Shown here piece by piece: positions 2,542 through 55,357 of a stretch of 64,000 nt of DNA. This stretch comes from Pegea sp. RAD2-039 (taxonomy: Eukaryota; Chordata; Thaliacea; Salpida; Salpidae). The stretch lies in the NCBI GenBank assembly GCA_034620365.1, contig JAQGEQ010000263.1:1054001-1118000 (forward strand), given 5' to 3'. The position numbers and the translations under genes were made by a program. The notes below the pieces were generated by a model that saw only the letters and a program-made list of their open reading frames with translations, ran no database searches and was not told where the DNA came from. Within the stretch, counting starts at the first letter, position 1; each line of letters begins with the position of its first letter.

Positions 2542-3126
2542 ATGGATAGTATGAGGTCAATTGGAAAGTTTTTTCACAAATTATCCAAAAAGATTTTTTC
2601 TTTTAATAAAACCAACGTTGATGAAAAGACTTTAGAAATATTTGTGGTTGGAAACACTGGAGTTGGAAAAACTTCTTTTTTGCGACGGTATATCAATCAA
2701 TATTTTTCACAATTTTTAGATAAAACAAAATCGATTGGATTTTTGGCAAAAGAAATAAAAAAAAACGGTAAGAAAGTTCGGATTTATTTCTGGGATACTT
2801 CTGGTTTAAAAGAGTTTAACCTCCAAACTAATTTTATGTATCGACGAGCCCAGGGCCTTATTCTAATGTACGATGTCTGTAATAGATCTAGCTTTGAACA
2901 AATTGAAGCTTGGCTTAAGCTAGTAAAAAAAACTTCTCCTGAACAACTTGGTTTGATTCTATGTGGTAATAAATGTGATAAAGAAAGTTTAAGACAAGTT
3001 TCAACCAAAGAAGGTAAACAACTTGCTAAAAAAGTAGGAGCTTCGTTTTTTGAAACAAGTGCAAAAACTGGCAAAAATGTTGAGAAAGTCACTTTATCTC
3101 TTTTTAAAGATCTATTACACAACTAA
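2542..3126 (+). CDS. Rab-like small GTPase with Leu at the catalytic Gln position (copy 1)
   Basis: Intronless ORF of 194 residues starting at ATG 2542. Small-GTPase motifs in order: P-loop GNTGVGKTS (37-45), switch I region with SIG where Rabs have TIG (about 64-66), DTSGLKE (85-91) in place of the usual DTAGQE, GNKCD (142-146) and ETSAK (171-175). RQVSTKEG and the helix after ETSAK resemble the Rab8/10-like branch. The catalytic Gln is Leu89; in classical Ras and Rab proteins that change strongly lowers GTP hydrolysis, so this copy may stay GTP-bound (inference). The C-terminus is KDLLHN with no cysteine, so prenylation is not expected. Copy 2 shares long near-identical DNA stretches around the GNKCD region, pointing to recent duplication. 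The lack of introns, unlike Rab11 in this window, suggests a retrocopy origin. Confidence 0.85.
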   Translation: MDSMRSIGKFFHKLSKKIFSFNKTNVDEKTLEIFVVGNTGVGKTSFLRRYINQYFSQFLDKTKSIGFLAKEIKKNGKKVRIYFWDTSGLKEFNLQTNFMYRRAQGLILMYDVCNRSSFEQIEAWLKLVKKTSPEQLGLILCGNKCDKESLRQVSTKEGKQLAKKVGASFFETSAKTGKNVEKVTLSLFKDLLHN

Positions 3127-3375
3127 GTTTATAAACCTTGAAAGAAAATGAACACAGTTTTATATTTTTGTAGCATTTAAGTAGCTGTGCTTGTCTATTT
3201 TATTTAGTTGTATTACGAAATACTGCAAAATAAATAGCTTTTTGCAAAAACTTTAGTTTTAAGTTTTTAAATTTGCAGTAATTTTATTAAACTGCAAAAA
3301 GAGTTTTCAAAATACAATTTTTGTTTCTTCAAAAAATAGAATAAAAATTATTTTTCTACATTTTGTTATTTCTTT

Positions 3376-4034
3376 CATGTCAGTGCATGGATACCATGTC
3401 AAATTGGTGATATCAAAAAAATCAAATCTGTTCAAGCAAGATTCACGAGATTGGTATGCAGAAAACTTAATATTAAATACGATAGTTATAAACATCGTCT
3501 CAGATTCTTCAATTTAGATAGTTTGGAAATTCAACAAATTAAATACGACTTGATTCTTATTTTTAAAATTATCCACGATTTAGTTCACCTTGAGTTCGAT
3601 GGTTTCGTATCCATTAGTCCTTCCTTCAAGTTATATCAATTCAGACGACACACATTACATCTTAATAAGTCCATATACCCGGTACAGTAATCAGAGCAAA
3701 TTTTTTCTCATACTGCATAATTAGTACTTGGAACCAGATGCCATCAGACATTGTCATGTCAGAATCACTCACGTTGTTCAAGCAGAAGTTGAACTGTTTT
3801 AATACTGCTAACATTGCCATTTATAAACTGTGCTTTTTTCCTTTTTTTAATACTATTAACATTTTATGTAATTATTCAGTGTTATATGTTTTGGGGACTA
3901 CTGAAATGCCATGTCTTACATTTTCTCTTTCTATATTTCTAACTTTAAAGGTATTATTTGTGAGAATGTGTGTTAGCGAGAGGTACTCTCTTCAGGAACC
4001 CTCCTTCGCATTTATTGTAACAAATAAATAATGT
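3376..4034 (+). mobile_element. 5'-truncated non-LTR retrotransposon 3' end (CR1/jockey-like), copy 1
   Basis: Decayed end of a LINE-type endonuclease-reverse transcriptase ORF followed by its 3' UTR. Readable pieces across frames include SVQARFTRLVCRKL, NLDSLEIQQIKYDLILIFKI and YQFRRHTLHLNKS, the post-RT tail typical of CR1/jockey-type LINEs, with frameshifts between them. The 3' UTR contains GTGTTAGCGAGAGGTACTCT and CCTCCTTCGCATTTATTGTA, also present in the copies at 59.67 and 63.3 kb, and ends in a short run of AAAT units. It begins abruptly at about 3376 compared with the longer copy at 59.67-60.40 kb, which fits 5' truncation. Confidence 0.8.
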
Positions 4035-4593
4035 CTTTGTTTAGATTTGACATGCATTCTTTTTATCATTCTGTTTAAATGCATCGTACAAAATGATAAC
4101 ATGAATCTGAAATTAGATTAATTCATAAAACCAGTTTGCATCTACTACAAAAGTAAATCATTACAATTCTGCTTTCACAGATTTGCTTATTTAAATAATT
4201 TCCTTAAAAATAAATTGTTTAACAAAATTTATTCTGATGAAACAACTTGTGCAAGTTTTTAGCATAAATACAGATATAAAAAAGTTTAAATTTTAACCTG
4301 CTTAGATTTGAAATATATTATCTAAAAGATTTTTTTTGAGAAAGTAAAAGTTAGACTTATTTACAGATTTATCTATTGGCAGAGATAGCATGACAGCTTA
4401 AGTAATTTTGTTTTGTAGAATTTTTAGTGGTAGACTCAAAAGGATGGTAACTTTTATACAAGAAGTTGTTGCTTGGTGTTTATTTAAAAAAATGTTTTTT
4501 TTAGTTCTAGAAATTATCGACTTTTAATAAAGTTTGAACAGATTAAGTTTCATTTTAATCGAACTATTTGCAATCGATAAATTTAAAAAGTAA
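4035..4593. other. Spacer between LINE fragment and GTPase copy 2
   Basis: AT-rich, no ORF or RNA gene supported. It must contain whatever promoter serves the GTPase at 4594, but no element stands out. Confidence 0.4.
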
Positions 4594-5772
4594 ATGGAAA
4601 ACCAAAGCAATAGAAATAGCTTCACTTCTGAAGCTGGTGAAGCTCGTAGAAATGAAGTCACTAATCAAACATGGATGCAAATTATTGTCCTTGGTTCCTT
4701 TGAAAGTGGTAAGTCCTCGATCATCCAGAGATACATCAAAAAAGAATTCTCACAAGACAAAAAGAAAACAAAAGTAATGGACTTTATGGCAATAGATAAA
4801 ATTGAGGAAAACGTCCGAATGTGTTTGTGGGATACACCAGGAAGAATGATTCTTCATCCAATAACAGCTTGCTTTTACAGACAAGCACATGGTTTTGTGA
4901 TCTTGTACAATGTGTTTAACAGATATAGTTTTAACAAAGTCAAGAGCTGGTTAAAAATTCCCATGAGCTTTTGCCAACAAAAGGTTGGTTTAGTCCTTTG
5001 TGGTAATAAATGTGATCAAGAAGGTTTAAGAAGAGTTTCAACTAAGGAAGGTGAACAACTTGCTGAGGAAATTGGAGCTTTGTTTTTTGAAACCAGTGCA
5101 AAAACTGGTCACAATGTTGAGCAAGCTTTTGATGCAATTTTTCATCAAATAATAAATAGTGACCAATACAAACATATCTTTAAGAAAGATGAAATTTTAT
5201 TAAACGTAGAAAACAAAGCTGCTGATGAAACTGTAGCTGGTGAAACTGTAGCTGGTGAAGCTGTAGCTGATGAAACTGTAGCTGATGAAACTGTAGCTGG
5301 TGAAGCTGTAGCTGGTGAAACTGTAGCTGGTGAAGCTGTAGCTGGTGAAACTGTAGCTGATGAAACTGTAGCTGGTGAAACTGTAGCTGGTGAAACTGTA
5401 ACTGATGAAGCTGTAGCTGATGAAGCTGTAGCTGGTGAAACTGTAGCTGATGAAACTGTAGCTGGTGAAGCTGTAGCTGATAAAACTGTAGCTAATGAAG
5501 CTGTAGCTGATGTAACTGTAGCTGATGAAGCAGTAGCTGATGAAACTGTAGCTGGTGAAGCTGTAGCTGATGAAGCTGTAGCTAGTGAAACTGTAGCTGA
5601 TGAAACTGTAGCTGGTGAAGCTGTAGCTGGTGAAGCTGTAACTGATGAAAATGTAGCTGATGAAACTGTAGCTGGTGAAACTGTAGCTGGTGAAGCTGTA
5701 GCTGGTGAAACTGTAGCTGGTGAAACTGTAGCTGGTGAAACTGTAGCTGGTGAAACTGAAAACTGTAGCTGA
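4594..5772 (+). CDS. Rab-like small GTPase with long ETVAG repeat tail (copy 2)
   Basis: Intronless ORF of 392 residues from ATG 4594. GTPase domain about 27-190: P-loop GSFESGKSS (34-42), switch I with VMD instead of TIG (so no Thr35 equivalent), WDTPGRM (79-85), GNKCD (137-141), ETSAK (166-170). The DxxGQ glutamine is Arg84, and proline replaces the usual alanine before the glycine. From about residue 209 the protein is a run of about 36 pentapeptides E-[T/A]-V-[A/T]-[G/D], encoded by a 15-bp minisatellite and strongly acidic. The ORF closes as GETENCS only because a 7-base insertion near 5757-5764 shifts the frame; a further 2-base shift near 5797 restores it and the same frame then stays open to a TAG at 6022-6024. 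So the true tail may be longer, or polymorphic. The C-terminal cysteine is not a standard Rab prenylation motif. Confidence 0.75.
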   Translation: MENQSNRNSFTSEAGEARRNEVTNQTWMQIIVLGSFESGKSSIIQRYIKKEFSQDKKKTKVMDFMAIDKIEENVRMCLWDTPGRMILHPITACFYRQAHGFVILYNVFNRYSFNKVKSWLKIPMSFCQQKVGLVLCGNKCDQEGLRRVSTKEGEQLAEEIGALFFETSAKTGHNVEQAFDAIFHQIINSDQYKHIFKKDEILLNVENKAADETVAGETVAGEAVADETVADETVAGEAVAGETVAGEAVAGETVADETVAGETVAGETVTDEAVADEAVAGETVADETVAGEAVADKTVANEAVADVTVADEAVADETVAGEAVADEAVASETVADETVAGEAVAGEAVTDENVADETVAGETVAGEAVAGETVAGETVAGETVAGETENCS

Positions 5773-5975
5773 TGAAACTGTAGCTGGTGAAACTGTAAAG
5801 CTGTAGCTGAAACTGTAGCTGGTGAAACTGTAGCTGGTGAAACTGTAGCTGGTGAAACTGTGGCTGATGAAACTGTAGCTGATGTAACTGTGGCTGATGA
5901 AACTGTAACTGTTGAAACTGTAGCTGATGAAACTGTAGCTGATGTAACTTTGGCTGATGTAACTGTAACTAATAA
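5221..5975 (+). repeat. 15-bp coding minisatellite, consensus GCTG[G/A]TGAA[A/G]CTGTA
   Basis: Roughly 50 tandem 15-bp units that read ETVAG/EAVAD in the GTPase frame. Units vary mainly at three positions (GGT/GAT, AAA/AAG context, occasional GTAACT), and variants are interleaved, as expected from unequal exchange or slippage. The array continues past the stop of the GTPase ORF, with irregular units at about 5757-5764 and 5792-5802. A long antisense ORF across it is a by-product of the repeat. Confidence 0.95.
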
Positions 5976-6201
5976 AGTTACAGCGGATGAAGTTGAAATG
6001 GATAAGAATAAAAATATTCAATAGTAGTATATATTTATTTTTCTTTAATCTTATGATTGCCTTCATATTATGATTCAATAATTTATAAAAAATTATATTA
6101 AATTATCAATTTTTCAAATTTGTTTGTAAATTTAAATATAATTATTGAAAGTTCTTTAAAAGTTATAAAAGTTCTTTTATAAGAAGCATTTTGTTTTTGA
6201 A

Positions 6202-6348
6202 ATGGACTCCATGAATTTTTTCAGTAGGATTTTTACTCGTTTTTATTCGAAAGCTTTCGATAGAAAAGTTAAACTCTTTTGGAAAAAATTTAAGATTATA
6301 GGTTCTCAAGGTTTATCTATAGATGACTTACAATTAAGTAAAGATTAA
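6202..6348 (+). pseudogene. Truncated Rab-like GTPase copy (48 codons)
   Basis: ORF from ATG 6202 to TAA 6346-6348. Its N-terminus MDSMNFFSRIFTRFYSKAFD resembles the start of GTPase copy 1 (MDSMRSIGKFFHKLSKKIFS), with the same basic, aromatic leader. It then reads FWKKFKIIGSQG, where copy 1 has LEIFVVGNTGVGK; the P-loop is not completed (no GKS/T) and a stop follows. Downstream DNA to 7434 gives no convincing GTPase remainder. It is most likely a broken duplicate, although a short peptide made of just the leader cannot be excluded. Confidence 0.45.
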
Positions 6349-7434
6349 GATTTAGTTTTTGTTAATTGGGAATTAAAATCATTTTTCTAAAACATTCAGA
6401 TTTACTTTTAAGGCTACATATTTTTCTAACTCGTTTTAATTGATTAACAAAAAAGTTTTTCATAAAATTTCTCATTTGTAAAACGATAATTAAATCATTT
6501 AAGCAATTATATTTTAATCAGAGCAAGGAATATTTCGCAAGAACAATTTCAAAATGTAAAAAAGAATTTACGATTTTTAAATAATTTAAATTTTTGTAAT
6601 TATTTTCGTTGACATTAACAACAAAATTTTAGTATTTTTTTATTTTTTTTTACTGACCAACAAAAATTTGGAAATATTTTGAAACGATTTAAAACTTATA
6701 TATACACTGAACTAATGGAAAGATAAAAATCAAAGTCTTTGTAAAATTGATTATAAGTTTAGTTATTTAGTTTGCTTGCTGTAAAAAAATCGCGGATATT
6801 TTGATTAAAGTAAATTGATAAGACTTCTGTATTGTGACTGTTCAAAATATTTATATATCTATTTTGGTTAATTAAACAGTCTAGATGACGAAAGAAACCA
6901 GTTTCGTTGAGAACTTTATTCTGATCAATTTAAAAGATAATTTGTTTTGTTGCTTTCTGCAACTTTAAAAACAAACTACTGAACTTGTTGCAATGGAAGC
7001 TGTTAGTTTTAACTTAATGATGATGAAACTATAAATTCTCCTGGCTGTGGTTTACGTCATGACCAGGAAATTGTTGTTTAGAACTAAACGAGGTTATGTC
7101 AGAAGTTTAACGGCCTAATTTTTATTATTATCATCTTAGAATAATTAGTCAACTTTTAAATTGGAAAAGTTATTTTTTAACATCAGCACAAGTTTAGTAG
7201 TTTTAAAAACATAACTGCTTAAAACTTTCATTTCAAAGTTTTAGTTCAAAGTTAGGTTTTAAGTTTTTAAATTAGTTAAATAAATTTTACAGCATTATAA
7301 AGTATTCTAACTTTGCTTTGTTAAATCTTATTATTAGAGCTTTTTGCTAACTTTGGATGATATATTGAGCTTACAAATTAAAACTACATTTATTTAAGTT
7401 AGGTTTATGGCTTAACTTGTTTTAAGTATAAAAA
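6349..7434. other. Spacer inside the GTPase cluster, no intact gene
   Basis: Non-coding as far as I can see. Around 7016-7081 a short open stretch with DDETINSPGCG could be a remnant of a cluster member but is too short to call. No RNA gene or element is supported. Confidence 0.4.
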
Positions 7435-8040
7435 ATGGCAAAGCGTAAATACGATTGTAGTTATTCATTATTTCTAATCGGTGATGTAGGAACTGGGAAG
7501 ACTAGTATCATAAACTGTTTTAAAGATCCAAGCAATAAAACTTCACCAGAACCAACTCTTCTACTTGATTCAGTATACAAAGATATTAAATTGTTAAACC
7601 AACGAATCAGATTACAAATTGTTGATACATCAGGATTGGAAAAATACAATTCAGTTTTAGCTTCCTACTACAGTAGAGCAAACGGTATTATACTTGTTTA
7701 TAGTGTTGATGATGAAACAAGTTTTAAACGAATCCATTTTTGGATGGATCAAGTTTCAAGCTATATTAGAGAAGATACAATTTTTTTGTTAGTAGGAAGT
7801 AAAAGTGATTTAGAAGAAAAGAGACAAGTTTCAACTCTTCGAGGTGAAGAATTAGCGAAAAGTCTAAAAATAAACTTTATTGAAGTGAGCAGTAAGCTAA
7901 ATCAAAATGTAATTGAAGCTTTTGATACAATAGTTAAAGATATAAGTACGAAAAAGCAAAATATTCCAGAAACAATTAAGTTAACTTTAGTTGATATTAT
8001 ACAAAAACAACTTTCAGAATTTTTTTATGGTCATTGTTAA
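7435..8040 (+). CDS. Divergent Rab-like small GTPase (copy 3)
   Basis: Intronless ORF of 201 residues from ATG 7435. P-loop GDVGTGKTS (16-24), DTSGLEKY (64-71), GSKSDL (121-126), EVSSK (150-154). The catalytic Gln is Leu68, as in copy 1. Two guanine-specificity motifs are also altered: NKxD reads SKSD and SAK reads SSK, so nucleotide affinity or specificity may differ (inference). RQVSTLRGEELAKSL is clearly Rab-like. The protein ends GHC, a single terminal cysteine, not the CC or CXC of most Rabs; prenylation is uncertain. It is more diverged from copies 1 and 2 than they are from each other, so it is the older duplicate. A plausible Kozak context (AAAAATGG) supports the start. Confidence 0.85.
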   Translation: MAKRKYDCSYSLFLIGDVGTGKTSIINCFKDPSNKTSPEPTLLLDSVYKDIKLLNQRIRLQIVDTSGLEKYNSVLASYYSRANGIILVYSVDDETSFKRIHFWMDQVSSYIREDTIFLLVGSKSDLEEKRQVSTLRGEELAKSLKINFIEVSSKLNQNVIEAFDTIVKDISTKKQNIPETIKLTLVDIIQKQLSEFFYGHC

Positions 8041-8259
8041 TGATATTATATGGCCTTTTTTGCTTCAACGTTTCTAGATTTGATTATTTAGTAGTATGTA
8101 ATCTAATTTTTTCTTTGTTGCAATGTAATCTTTTTCAAATAAGAAATAAATTTTGTTTTACATTATTTACTACTTTCATATAACAGTTTTACAAATCGTA
8201 TACTAGATATTCTTGTAACCTAAGCTTCTAGAGCTAATCAAGTTGATTTGGCAACTTAA

Positions 8260-8427
8260 CTTGCGAAACTAATTGACCAACAACACCAAGTCAATAATAA
8301 CTGGTTTTACAAACAACACTTGCACTTGGTAGTCAAAAGTACTGAAGACTCATCTGCTTCTAGCATAGATAGCTTGAGAAAGTTAAAGATCATCGAACAA
8401 GATTATAATTACAATAATTTTGTATAG
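8260..8427 (+). pseudogene. Short open reading stretch, possible exon or GTPase-cluster remnant
   Basis: After a TAA at 8257-8259, 55 codons stay open to TAG 8425-8427, with a varied, coding-like composition (LAKLIDQQHQ, VVKSTEDSSASSIDSL). The same frame is also open for about 11 codons before the TAA. There is no start codon in good position and no clear acceptor, and I cannot match it to a family. It could be a decayed C-terminal tail of a cluster gene or chance. Confidence 0.25.
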
Positions 8428-22471: not shown

Positions 22472-24283
22472 TTAACTATCAGACGGCTGAGACTGAAACG
22501 CTGACATCATACTAGTCACGTGAGTGTGCGCGGTACCGCTACTTTTAGTTTTCTTCCAAATTGTTACTAAGGTCCGTTTTGTGATATGCCAAAACCTTGT
22601 CGAGTAGATAAAAGGGTTAAGTGCACTGTTTATAGGCAAAACAATGACTGTGAATGTGTCTAGTATTGGATACATTTTATCAAGAAACTGATGGTACTCA
22701 GTACTATGTTCTTTCATTGTTGCTGTCTTAATAGTGAAAGCTACTGCTAGAAAGCAGAGAGGAACCCAACAAAAGAAATCGGTTAGTATCATTACAAGTA
22801 TTCTTCGCTGCATTCTACGATTTTCTCTACCTCTTTGACACTTGAAAACAACTGTTTGAATTCGACTTCCTGATGAGCAAGTCGTTGACATCCGTGAGAT
22901 TGACAAGCGAGATAGACTGAGATTCTTTAAAGATACTTTTGGGGATTTCTTATTGATATGTCCCAGTGATCCTGATTGTTTTTTTGAGCTTAATACGTGA
23001 GTAAGATGCTTTAAATCAGATTTTTGTTTTCCTACATAGTTAGAAGATCTCCAAATCCAAACGTAAGCAAAAATGATGAAGACGAAAGAAATGAGATTAA
23101 AACAAACAACTGCCATCGTAAATGGCATTGATGAGCTAGTACTAGTCGGGAAGTAGGTAGCTGTACACACGCTACGCTCATTGTAGTAACCATAGTAACG
23201 AATAGTTTCATTTGTGGAGATTAGATGAAGCTGCTTTGCTGCTTTAACCAGTTGCTTCCAGGTCGTTGTTGAACTTATCATAGGAGCACTTTGACCACAG
23301 CGGCTAAGCGCTTCTGATGTCAACTTCACAACACGTGAAAGAAACTCATAATGAACTTCGGGGTGCTCTTGATTTGCGTAACAGAAATTTGATTGGTCAA
23401 ATCGGATGAAGTTATTGAAACGTATACCAACAAATTCGATCCCAACAACTGGTGTTAGTGCAACAATAAGCCAGAAGCACCAAGCTAACGTCGTTAGCAC
23501 CATCGCTTTCTTAAGTTGCTTTCTACCATTGATATTAAACGGATTAAGAGTTGTTTGTAATCGAAATGACGTAATAATGATAAGAAGAGTCACTGAGACT
23601 TGGCTGGATGTAAATGACATCACTCCCATAGCAAGACACGCGCGACTCTCCATCCACTCAAGGAATTCTAACCGATTGTACTTACCCTCATGATCAGATT
23701 CCTCATTTCCATGCATATGTTGAAAGGCGTAGATGATGAGGTAAACTCCCATCAGAAAATCTGCCAATGCTAAATTGAGGATCAAAAATCGGTGGACCTT
23801 TGCTGAAGTTCCAGACTTTTTCTTCTGGATATTGAGCCAAATACAATGAAAAGCAACTCCTAAATTTCCTATTACAGCTGCAAGTGCAAAGAACCAAACA
23901 ATTAGTTCAACAAATTTGTGGTCCATGTTTAAAGCGTTTTGTTCGACAGATAACCGGTCGGTGTCGTTTGTTTGGCAATTCTCCATCGTGATGACCTGGT
24001 TACTACTAGGACTGGATTGGTTGCCACAGTAGAACAAAGGAGGGTTTTCATTTGAATGGTTTGTTTTCCAATCGTTCGTGAAATTACAACAAAACATTTG
24101 TAGCAAAGTTTTATTATTAATTTCAGAAGATTGTAAACTCGTACAGTTGGTTGTAGTTCCTTTAAATGTTGTTTGGTTGTTAAACGTGCAAAAGTATTTC
24201 TCTTTCCCGTTGTACTGACCACCTGCCCATTGAAAGCTATACACAAGATCAGATTGAGCTTGCAAATGATGCGAGTGTACCAT
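22472..24283 (-). CDS. LGR/relaxin-receptor-like GPCR without visible leucine-rich repeats
   Basis: Single-exon ORF of 603 residues. Seven membrane spans at about 125-150, 164-188, 213-240, 259-282, 386-411, 494-519 and 538-562. LGR-type signatures: LNLALADFLMGVYL in TM2, VMILTDFFCWVPL in TM6, VLPINSALNPFIYS in TM7. The TM3 cysteine (216) and an ECL2 cysteine (373) are present. Unusual features: ECL2 is about 100 residues long, the E/DRY region reads ITSFRLQ (Arg kept, acidic residue lost), and ICL3 is long and Ser/Lys-rich. The 125-residue ectodomain has several N-glycosylation sites and cysteines, no LRR and no obvious signal peptide. Just upstream the frame closes at a TAG lying inside a good acceptor (TTTTTTAG, exon would start at 24328), so an upstream exon carrying a signal peptide or more ectodomain is possible. 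Its A+T content is clearly lower than the flanks. The ligand is unknown. Confidence 0.85.
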   Translation of the reverse strand: MVHSHHLQAQSDLVYSFQWAGGQYNGKEKYFCTFNNQTTFKGTTTNCTSLQSSEINNKTLLQMFCCNFTNDWKTNHSNENPPLFYCGNQSSPSSNQVITMENCQTNDTDRLSVEQNALNMDHKFVELIVWFFALAAVIGNLGVAFHCIWLNIQKKKSGTSAKVHRFLILNLALADFLMGVYLIIYAFQHMHGNEESDHEGKYNRLEFLEWMESRACLAMGVMSFTSSQVSVTLLIIITSFRLQTTLNPFNINGRKQLKKAMVLTTLAWCFWLIVALTPVVGIEFVGIRFNNFIRFDQSNFCYANQEHPEVHYEFLSRVVKLTSEALSRCGQSAPMISSTTTWKQLVKAAKQLHLISTNETIRYYGYYNERSVCTATYFPTSTSSSMPFTMAVVCFNLISFVFIIFAYVWIWRSSNYVGKQKSDLKHLTHVLSSKKQSGSLGHINKKSPKVSLKNLSLSRLSISRMSTTCSSGSRIQTVVFKCQRGRENRRMQRRILVMILTDFFCWVPLCFLAVAFTIKTATMKEHSTEYHQFLDKMYPILDTFTVIVLPINSALNPFIYSTRFWHITKRTLVTIWKKTKSSGTAHTHVTSMMSAFQSQPSDS

Positions 24284-51076: not shown

Positions 51077-51403
51077 ATGTCTTCTCAGCAAGCTACTATC
51101 AGTCCTATTAATGATGATCAACCTCTTAATTCAGTTGAAAAACAGAATGAAATTGAAAATCAATCAATAACTAATAGAACTCTTTCACAAGTTCTTTTCT
51201 TTTCATTTTTAATGTTTTCAATTCCTCTCCCATCTTATTTTATTGCTAAAAAAAAGCTCTTTGAAGAGTATCTTGATTTTGATGTGCATGATAGTGCCAT
51301 ACCAGCTGCAATGATTGCTTTCTTTATGGTTCATATTATTTTGGTGTTGTATGTTTACTTAGCATATACGGAAGATATACCCAAGAAAAAAAAGTCTGAA
51401 TAA
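51077..51403 (+). CDS. VMA21: VMA21, V-ATPase assembly chaperone
   Basis: Small ER membrane protein needed to assemble the Vo sector of the vacuolar-type proton ATPase. The ORF starts at ATG 51077 (an in-frame TTG nine bases upstream is not a plausible start) and gives 108 residues, close to the family's usual size (human 101). N-terminal 40 residues are hydrophilic; TM1 about 44-62 (LSQVLFFSFLMFSIPLPSYF), a short loop with KKKLFEEYLDFD, TM2 about 77-97 (AAMIAFFMVHIILVLYVYLA), then a lysine-rich tail PKKKKSE suited to ER retrieval. The loop and TM2 match human VMA21 (YAAIVAVVAVHVVLALFVYVA). No intron in the coding part; an acceptor-like sequence just upstream suggests a spliced 5' UTR. Confidence 0.88.
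   Translation: MSSQQATISPINDDQPLNSVEKQNEIENQSITNRTLSQVLFFSFLMFSIPLPSYFIAKKKLFEEYLDFDVHDSAIPAAMIAFFMVHIILVLYVYLAYTEDIPKKKKSE

Positions 51404-52799: not shown

Positions 52800-55357
<2,558 letters not shown>

Follow-up and report, generated by a model that had tools for sequence, protein, structure and literature searches.

A 64,000-nucleotide stretch of the Pegea sp. RAD2-039 genome (contig JAQGEQ010000263.1, positions 1,054,001 to 1,118,000; hereafter the window) carries a cluster of three intronless Rab-like GTPase genes, copies 1, 2, and 3, all of which lack the catalytic glutamine (Gln) of the G3 motif. We propose that they belong to a family of intronless, unprenylated Rab-like GTPases, probably derived from a Rab3/Rab8/Rab10-type ancestor, which is under purifying selection, has lost the Gln at least twice, and has become a mosaic through gene conversion; we put the probability of this reading at roughly 0.6. 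The window (C32:1054001-1118000 in our contig numbering) belongs to a genome of 105.7 Mb in 387 contigs, and its composition is AT-rich (20-36% GC per 2 kb).

In each of the three copies, the Ras domain (Pfam PF00071) is uninterrupted within one open reading frame (ORF). Their G3 motifs read DTSGLKE (copy 1), DTPGRMI (copy 2), and DTSGLEK (copy 3), without the Gln of the canonical DTAGQE, and the codons at this position (TTA, AGA, and TTG) are each at least two bases away from CAA and CAG, which excludes a single-base error as the cause. The GxxxxGK[ST] pattern of G1 is present in all three (GNTGVGKT, GSFESGKS, and GDVGTGKT in copies 1 to 3), G4 and G5 are NKCD and SAK in copies 1 and 2 and SKSD and SSK in copy 3, and the switch I Thr (T62 in copy 1) is invariant across the six intact family members. 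A first-pass annotation of this DNA had described three intronless Rab-like copies without the catalytic Gln, with the P-loop kept and with NKxD/SAK kept in copies 1 and 2; the ORFs, PF00071 matches, codons, and motif listing all agree. Inspection by eye revealed no prenylation motif (CC, CXC, or CAAX) at the C-terminus of any of the six intact members: copy 1 has no Cys in its last 10 residues, copy 3 ends in a single Cys, and the copy 2 ORF ends GETENCS. The true C-terminus of copy 2 is uncertain, because the last ∼180 of its 392 amino acids form a 15-bp/5-amino-acid repeat whose frame breaks at ∼5757 and is restored by ∼5800, after which it stays open until 6024 and ends NKNIQ. Read in reverse, the same repeat produces a minus-strand ORF at 5200-6066 (288 codons open), which we discarded as a by-product, and the HC2 and GETHR Pfam matches on copy 2 are taken as compositional, arising from the repeat.

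Protein searches of the genome put the family at no fewer than six intact members, with four or more decayed copies or fragments, spread over contigs C32, C20, and C40; the searches score the best candidates only (150 of 193 in one of them), so these counts are lower bounds. Three of the six intact members found, C20a, C20b, and C40a, keep the Gln (Table 1). The earlier statement that every copy lacks it thus applies to the window cluster and to its decayed C40 duplicate, not to the family as a whole. A pattern search of the loci gave 20 distinct G3-like strings, of which the family accounts for three with Gln, three with Leu or Arg, and two decayed ones without Gln. The C40 duplicate, at ∼315.5-319.1 kb, consists of stretches colinear with parts of window positions 4050-8365, with one extra, out-of-order match to a dispersed repeat; the colinear comparison found no C40 counterpart of 4899-6312, the remainder of copy 2. 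Its decayed copy 2' has three stops within the match to copy 2, and its decayed copy 3' has lost 2 bp and has its 3' end partly repeated. The flanks of the members, compared without the copy 2 downstream flank, share no convincing sequence, the only matches being one of 23 bp upstream (E 0.007) and one of 65 columns at 72% (E 0.005) in the downstream flanks of C40a and copy 3. A viral origin was also considered: when viral contigs were scanned with the family alignment, 54 pattern matches came up, none of them a relative.

The history of the Gln was examined on trees with the Gln site masked. The whole-domain tree used 14 of the 18 rows (own_C127, own_C60, own_C6_3092k, and own_C121_ral left out), and the trees of the 5' and 3' parts used 12 (own_C115 and own_C11_rab also left out); copy 3' entered the trees and the selection estimates as the 151 codons ahead of its frameshift. 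The Rab12 of 8vh4 was excluded from the state count, the Leu of that chain being, we assume, an engineered change. Copies 1 and 2 form one clade with C20a, C20b, and C40a, apart from copy 3 (support 99/97 for the whole domain, 85/87 for the 5' part), with weak branches inside it. The three cluster genes are therefore not simple tandem copies of one another, as they had first been described; copies 1 and 2 are nearer to the C20 and C40 genes than to copy 3. The best tree requires three changes at the Gln site, and a single loss shared by copies 1 and 2 is not rejected by the approximately unbiased test (p-AU 0.27 on the whole domain, 0.14 and 0.32 in the part-wise tests); as this is compatible with the tests, the minimum is two losses. 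In the simplest history, a Gln-bearing family lost the residue at least twice, and the loss in the window cluster is secondary.

The Gln-less genes are evolving under constraint. On a six-gene tree, the tip ratios of nonsynonymous to synonymous substitution rates (dN/dS) are 0.14 for copy 1, 0.27 for copy 2, and 0.03 for copy 3 (dS saturated), within the range of the Gln-keepers (0.10-0.27) or below it. Likelihood ratios (LRs) against dN/dS = 1 are 27.2, 7.5, and 33.6 for copies 1 to 3 (24.8, 6.3, and 34.6 on a second topology), and 20.1, 4.5, and 9.5 on the 5' part alone, where the Gln-keeper C40a is indistinguishable from 1 (LR 0.7). Judged by these substitution patterns, copies 1 to 3 are not pseudogenes and are under purifying selection. 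The dN/dS comparison that the first-pass annotation had proposed as a check is thus non-neutral, each copy being distinguishable from 1, and its view of a real Rab-like family is upheld, with purifying selection and with nucleotide-binding motifs that are largely kept.

Not all parts of these genes appear to share one history. Five members on three contigs (all but copy 3) have a high-identity segment spanning G4 and G5, 108-219 bp long, in which identity is 76-91% versus 54-60% outside (10 of 10 pairs). In a shuffle test with the same scan grid for data and shuffles, no shuffle out of 500 matched the gain in nine pairs, and 1 of 500 did so in C20b/C40a; the start of the segment varies by pair. 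Mean amino acid identity among the five is 41% from G1 to just before G4 and 78% over the next 43 codons, whereas in four canonical Rabs from the PDB identity falls from 60% in the 5' part to 48% in the 3' part (mean of six pairs). Where two members have the same residue, the proportion of identical codons is 0.67-0.89 inside the segment versus 0.39-0.63 before it (chance 0.49), and the tree dS without the copy 3 tip is 6.95 in the 5' part versus 3.11 in the segment. Isolated remnants of the segment lie at C40:315113 and C32:1047171. Two further tracts link the cluster to C40: one across switch II of copies 2 and 2', which is probably a gene-conversion tract, and one in copies 3 and 3', where the first 451 bp of coding sequence (CDS) are 96.5% identical, compared with 319/455 (70%) in the upstream and 153/190 in the downstream flank. 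Gene conversion is the simplest reading of the G4-G5, copy 2/2', and copy 3/3' tracts; both intact and decayed paralogues would have taken part, and a switch II version like DTPGRM could in this way pass from one copy to another.

By PDB sequence, copy 1 matches Rab3, Rab12, and Rab10 best, copy 2 Rab3, and copy 3 Rab10 and Rab8. Among the 60 best matches per copy (of 854, 805, and 764), all are named Rab, Ypt, or Sec4 except 1zbd, 4rke, 1yu9, and 1z0k, which are titled Rab3A, Rab2, Rab4A, and Rab4, so Rabs are closer than other branches of the Ras superfamily. The bit score of copy 1 is 133 against Rab3 and about 106 against Rab11A; the trees contained no Rab11. AlphaFold2 models, both built on the six-member alignment, have a mean predicted local distance difference test score (pLDDT) of 67.9 and a predicted template modeling score (pTM) of 0.68 for copy 1, and 71.7 and 0.71 for residues 1-199 of copy 2, in which strands and helices follow much the same order and confidence is low at 51-65, near switch I. 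The best PDB folds for the copy 1 model are Rab8, Rab10, and Rab3, with TM about 0.70 on the query; like the sequence matches, the best 50 of 1996 fold matches are Rab-family proteins. Residues 2-19 of copy 1 are modeled, with low confidence, as a helix. Its N-terminal 18-mer, MRSIGKFFHKLSKKIFSF, has a charge of +5 and a hydrophobic moment of 0.66, a value attained in 7 of 5000 shuffles of residues 1-30.

It is plausible that copies 1 to 3 are constitutively GTP-bound or non-hydrolysing. For copies 1 and 2 we tentatively suggest, at clearly less than even odds, as the most likely working one as GTP-binding, slowly hydrolysing proteins that would be long-lived GTP-state partners of Rab3/8/10-type effectors. 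GTP would be bound via the P-loop, NKxD, SAK, and the Thr of switch I and turned over slowly, and the proteins would hold or sequester the effectors that ordinary members of the Rab3/8/10 type use. Having no prenyl tail, they would not cycle via GDP-dissociation inhibitor (GDI); in copy 1, the cationic amphipathic helix at the N-terminus may stand in for the lipid anchor.

The first-pass annotation had supposed that the ancestor already lacked the Gln, a history that would need one loss for all copies followed by regain, or else misplaced Gln-keepers. In keeping with it, the three cluster genes and the decayed duplicate all lack the Gln, copies 1 and 2 on their own could share a loss, and a single clade of all Gln-less copies is not rejected on the 43-column 3' part (p-AU 0.077). 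However, that clade is rejected on the whole domain (p-AU 0.0228) and on the 5' part (0.0408), the codons at the site differ, and the intact Gln-keepers C20a, C20b, and C40a sit inside the clade with copies 1 and 2; we consider a single ancestral loss very unlikely. It is also tempting to dismiss the genes as decaying Rab retrocopies that lost the Gln through drift, as they are intronless, have four decayed relatives or fragments, include a repeat that shifts the frame (copy 2), and flank a dispersed repeat (copies 1 and 2). Yet three full-length ORFs persist in AT-rich DNA, and the tip dN/dS values and LRs given above stand against neutrality. Moreover, when neutral decay was simulated by substitutions only, with no indels, from the first 194 codons of C20a and C40a, the stop-free copies out of 5000 numbered 297 and 266 at 0.1 substitutions per site, 34 and 26 at 0.2, 6 and 2 at 0.3, and 0 and 0 at 0.5. 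The open ORFs of copies 1 to 3 are not chance survivals, and a pseudogene origin of the pattern seems to us an unlikely one.

The G4-G5 segment could instead have been kept by selection on both protein and nucleotides, which does not require recombination. The guanine-binding motifs lie in it, and dN drops there as well, from 1.29 to 0.25, so selection could mimic conversion. In contrast, synonymous codons are shared too, canonical Rabs show the reverse gradient, and the separate C32/C40 tracts span other gene parts, which leaves selection as a doubtful substitute for conversion. The dN drop is nevertheless one of several points that weigh against our overall reading. The selection signal of copy 2 is modest (LR 7.5, falling to 6.3 under the second topology), the 5' part is close to saturated in dS (tips 0.87-3.59), pLDDT is below 50 in the copy 1 N-terminal helix, the copy 2 P-loop GSFESGKS departs from the Rab norm, and SKSD may weaken nucleotide binding in copy 3. 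In addition, TBC-type Rab GTPase-activating proteins (GAPs) supply both an arginine and a glutamine finger, according to a passage of PMC10978497 that cites Pan et al. 2006; a Rab that has lost its own Gln is thus not necessarily locked in the GTP state. The copies might then be hydrolysing switches that continue to cycle, with the Gln change of little effect. Two of the three Gln-keepers are altered elsewhere in their GTPase motifs (ETSG in C40a, NKCE in C20b), which indicates that the family tolerates such change. Against this, the switch I/II part is the most diverged among the five members (41%), making recognition by ordinary Rab GAPs doubtful, and we think cycling switches rather improbable. 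Beyond our preferred reading of a family with repeated Gln loss and conversion, one can imagine a two-speed mosaic in which conversion among intact and decayed paralogues would homogenise the guanine-binding half, the switch half would diversify, and short tracts would spread Gln-less versions of switch II (such as DTPGRM) from copy to copy; the outcome would be Rab decoys that are unprenylated, locked in GTP, and different in their effector surfaces; this further step is speculative and probably wrong.

Single Gln-less Rabs are already known, as are unprenylated Rab-like proteins. What is unusual here is recurrent Gln loss in one family combined with a half-domain mosaic. Our literature searches, whose coverage mostly excludes subscription papers, found no paper on this Rab-like family. 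At least two losses of the catalytic Gln beside paralogues that keep it amount to a natural experiment on the need of a Rab for GTP hydrolysis, and the mosaic offers a testable case of a GTPase domain in which conversion affects one half and the effector-facing half diverges.

Table 1. Features of the Rab-like cluster and its relatives (window positions unless a contig is given)
Feature	Position	Strand	Remarks
Copy 1, intact intronless Rab-like gene	2542-3126	+	DTSGLKE; ATG-to-stop ORF, 194 aa; PF00071 154.9 bits
Copy 2, intact intronless Rab-like gene	4594-5772	+	DTPGRM; ATG-to-stop ORF, 392 aa; PF00071 135.9 bits
Copy 3, intact intronless Rab-like gene	7435-8040	+	DTSGLEK; ATG-to-stop ORF, 201 aa; PF00071 152.4 bits
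Catalytic Gln position, copy 1	2806-2808	+	Leu, TTA
Catalytic Gln position, copy 2	4843-4845	+	Arg, AGA
Catalytic Gln position, copy 3	7636-7638	+	Leu, TTG
G4-G5 segment, copy 1	2948-3088	+	84.4% over 141 bp to 4985-5125; highly similar across five members
G4-G5 segment, copy 2	4985-5125	+	
Tract over G3/switch II (DTPGRM site) of copy 2	4813-4898	+	82/86 identical to copy 2' (C40), versus 482/717 outside; 0/2000 shuffles reach score
Copy 3 stretch near-identical to copy 3' (C40)	7375-8040	+	56/60 just upstream; CDS 435/451, then 136/153 (gaps not counted)
15-bp tandem repeat GCTGGTGAAACTGTA	5221-5967	+	50 copies, coding A(G/D)E(T/A)V; acidic pentapeptide-repeat tail of copy 2
Dispersed repeat between copies 1 and 2	3377-4031	+	86% to 60320-59668, 72% to 63665-63302
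C20a (L001), intact intronless member	C20:716417	+	DTSGQKE; Gln kept
C20b (L007), intact intronless member	C20:709845	-	DTSGQKE; Gln kept; G4 variant NKCE
C40a (L005), intact intronless member	C40:307997	+	ETSGQVA; Gln kept; ETSG variant
Decayed relatives or fragments	C40:315113, C40:316018, C40:317805, C32:1047171		

Elsewhere in the window, an intron-containing Rab-type gene with DTAGQE, which we would call Rab11-like from its sequence, lies at 53329-54394, 45 kb from the cluster. Positions 22472-24283 on the minus strand hold a large exon of a rhodopsin-type G protein-coupled receptor (7tm_1, 63 bits), and 51077-51403 a VMA21-like ORF (50 bits). The translation of the dispersed repeat at 3377-4031 resembles the C-terminal end of a long interspersed nuclear element (LINE) reverse transcriptase. 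We rejected a small ORF at 6202-6348 (MDSM...) as a truncated relative of copy 1, the best DNA comparison having E 0.13, a 23-bp upstream match E 0.007, and Pfam giving no family. The other 12 G3-like strings of the pattern search lie outside the family: eight have Gln, two do not (L016 with His and L038 with Glu), and two are taken as chance matches (L020 DVPGI and L062 DTAGC); the pattern misses degenerate motifs such as that of own_C60, with Lys at the Gln site. L038 (C3:961510) is a Ras-like exon with DTAGEE, and L016 (C6:3092491) has a Rab-like domain followed by a J-domain-like C-terminus, which we liken to DNAJC27/RBJ. At C60:45575 (L019), a Ras-like frame of 187 aa is open and has a degenerate G3 motif.

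Among known systems, Rab3, Rab8, Rab10, and Rab12 are nearest to the window genes by sequence, and nearest to copy 1 by fold too. The canonical forms of these Rabs have the Gln and a prenylated tail; copy 1 is 29-38% identical to the best 50 of 1996 fold matches, with diverged switch regions and no tail Cys motif. The RABL proteins, which are old and mostly single genes, resemble the window family in having a Rab-like GTPase domain without a prenylation site, a likeness of kind that does not imply orthology. Passages of PMC7818423 list RABL2, RABL3, RABL4/IFT27, RABL5/IFT22, and RABL6 as lacking a C-terminal prenylation site, and give RABL4 and RABL5 roles in intraflagellar transport; for IFT27, the missing site is also noted in parts of PMC4003483 and PMC3425129. 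The window family differs from the RABL proteins in that it has duplicated repeatedly. In this it recalls the Rab6 group of primates, a young expansion that includes a retrotransposed copy, which we take to be Rab6c. A section of PMC3425129 mentions this copy as reactivated, among lineage-specific duplicates, and describes neither a mosaic nor Gln loss there. For the Gln site itself, the parallel is vertebrate Rab25 (Rab11c), which naturally has Leu at this position (DTAGLE) and is said to be constitutively active in a passage of PMC4359700. Copies 1 and 3 likewise have Leu, and copy 2 has Arg. Rab25, however, is prenylated and groups with Rab11, whereas the window genes match Rab3, Rab8, Rab10, and Rab12 best.

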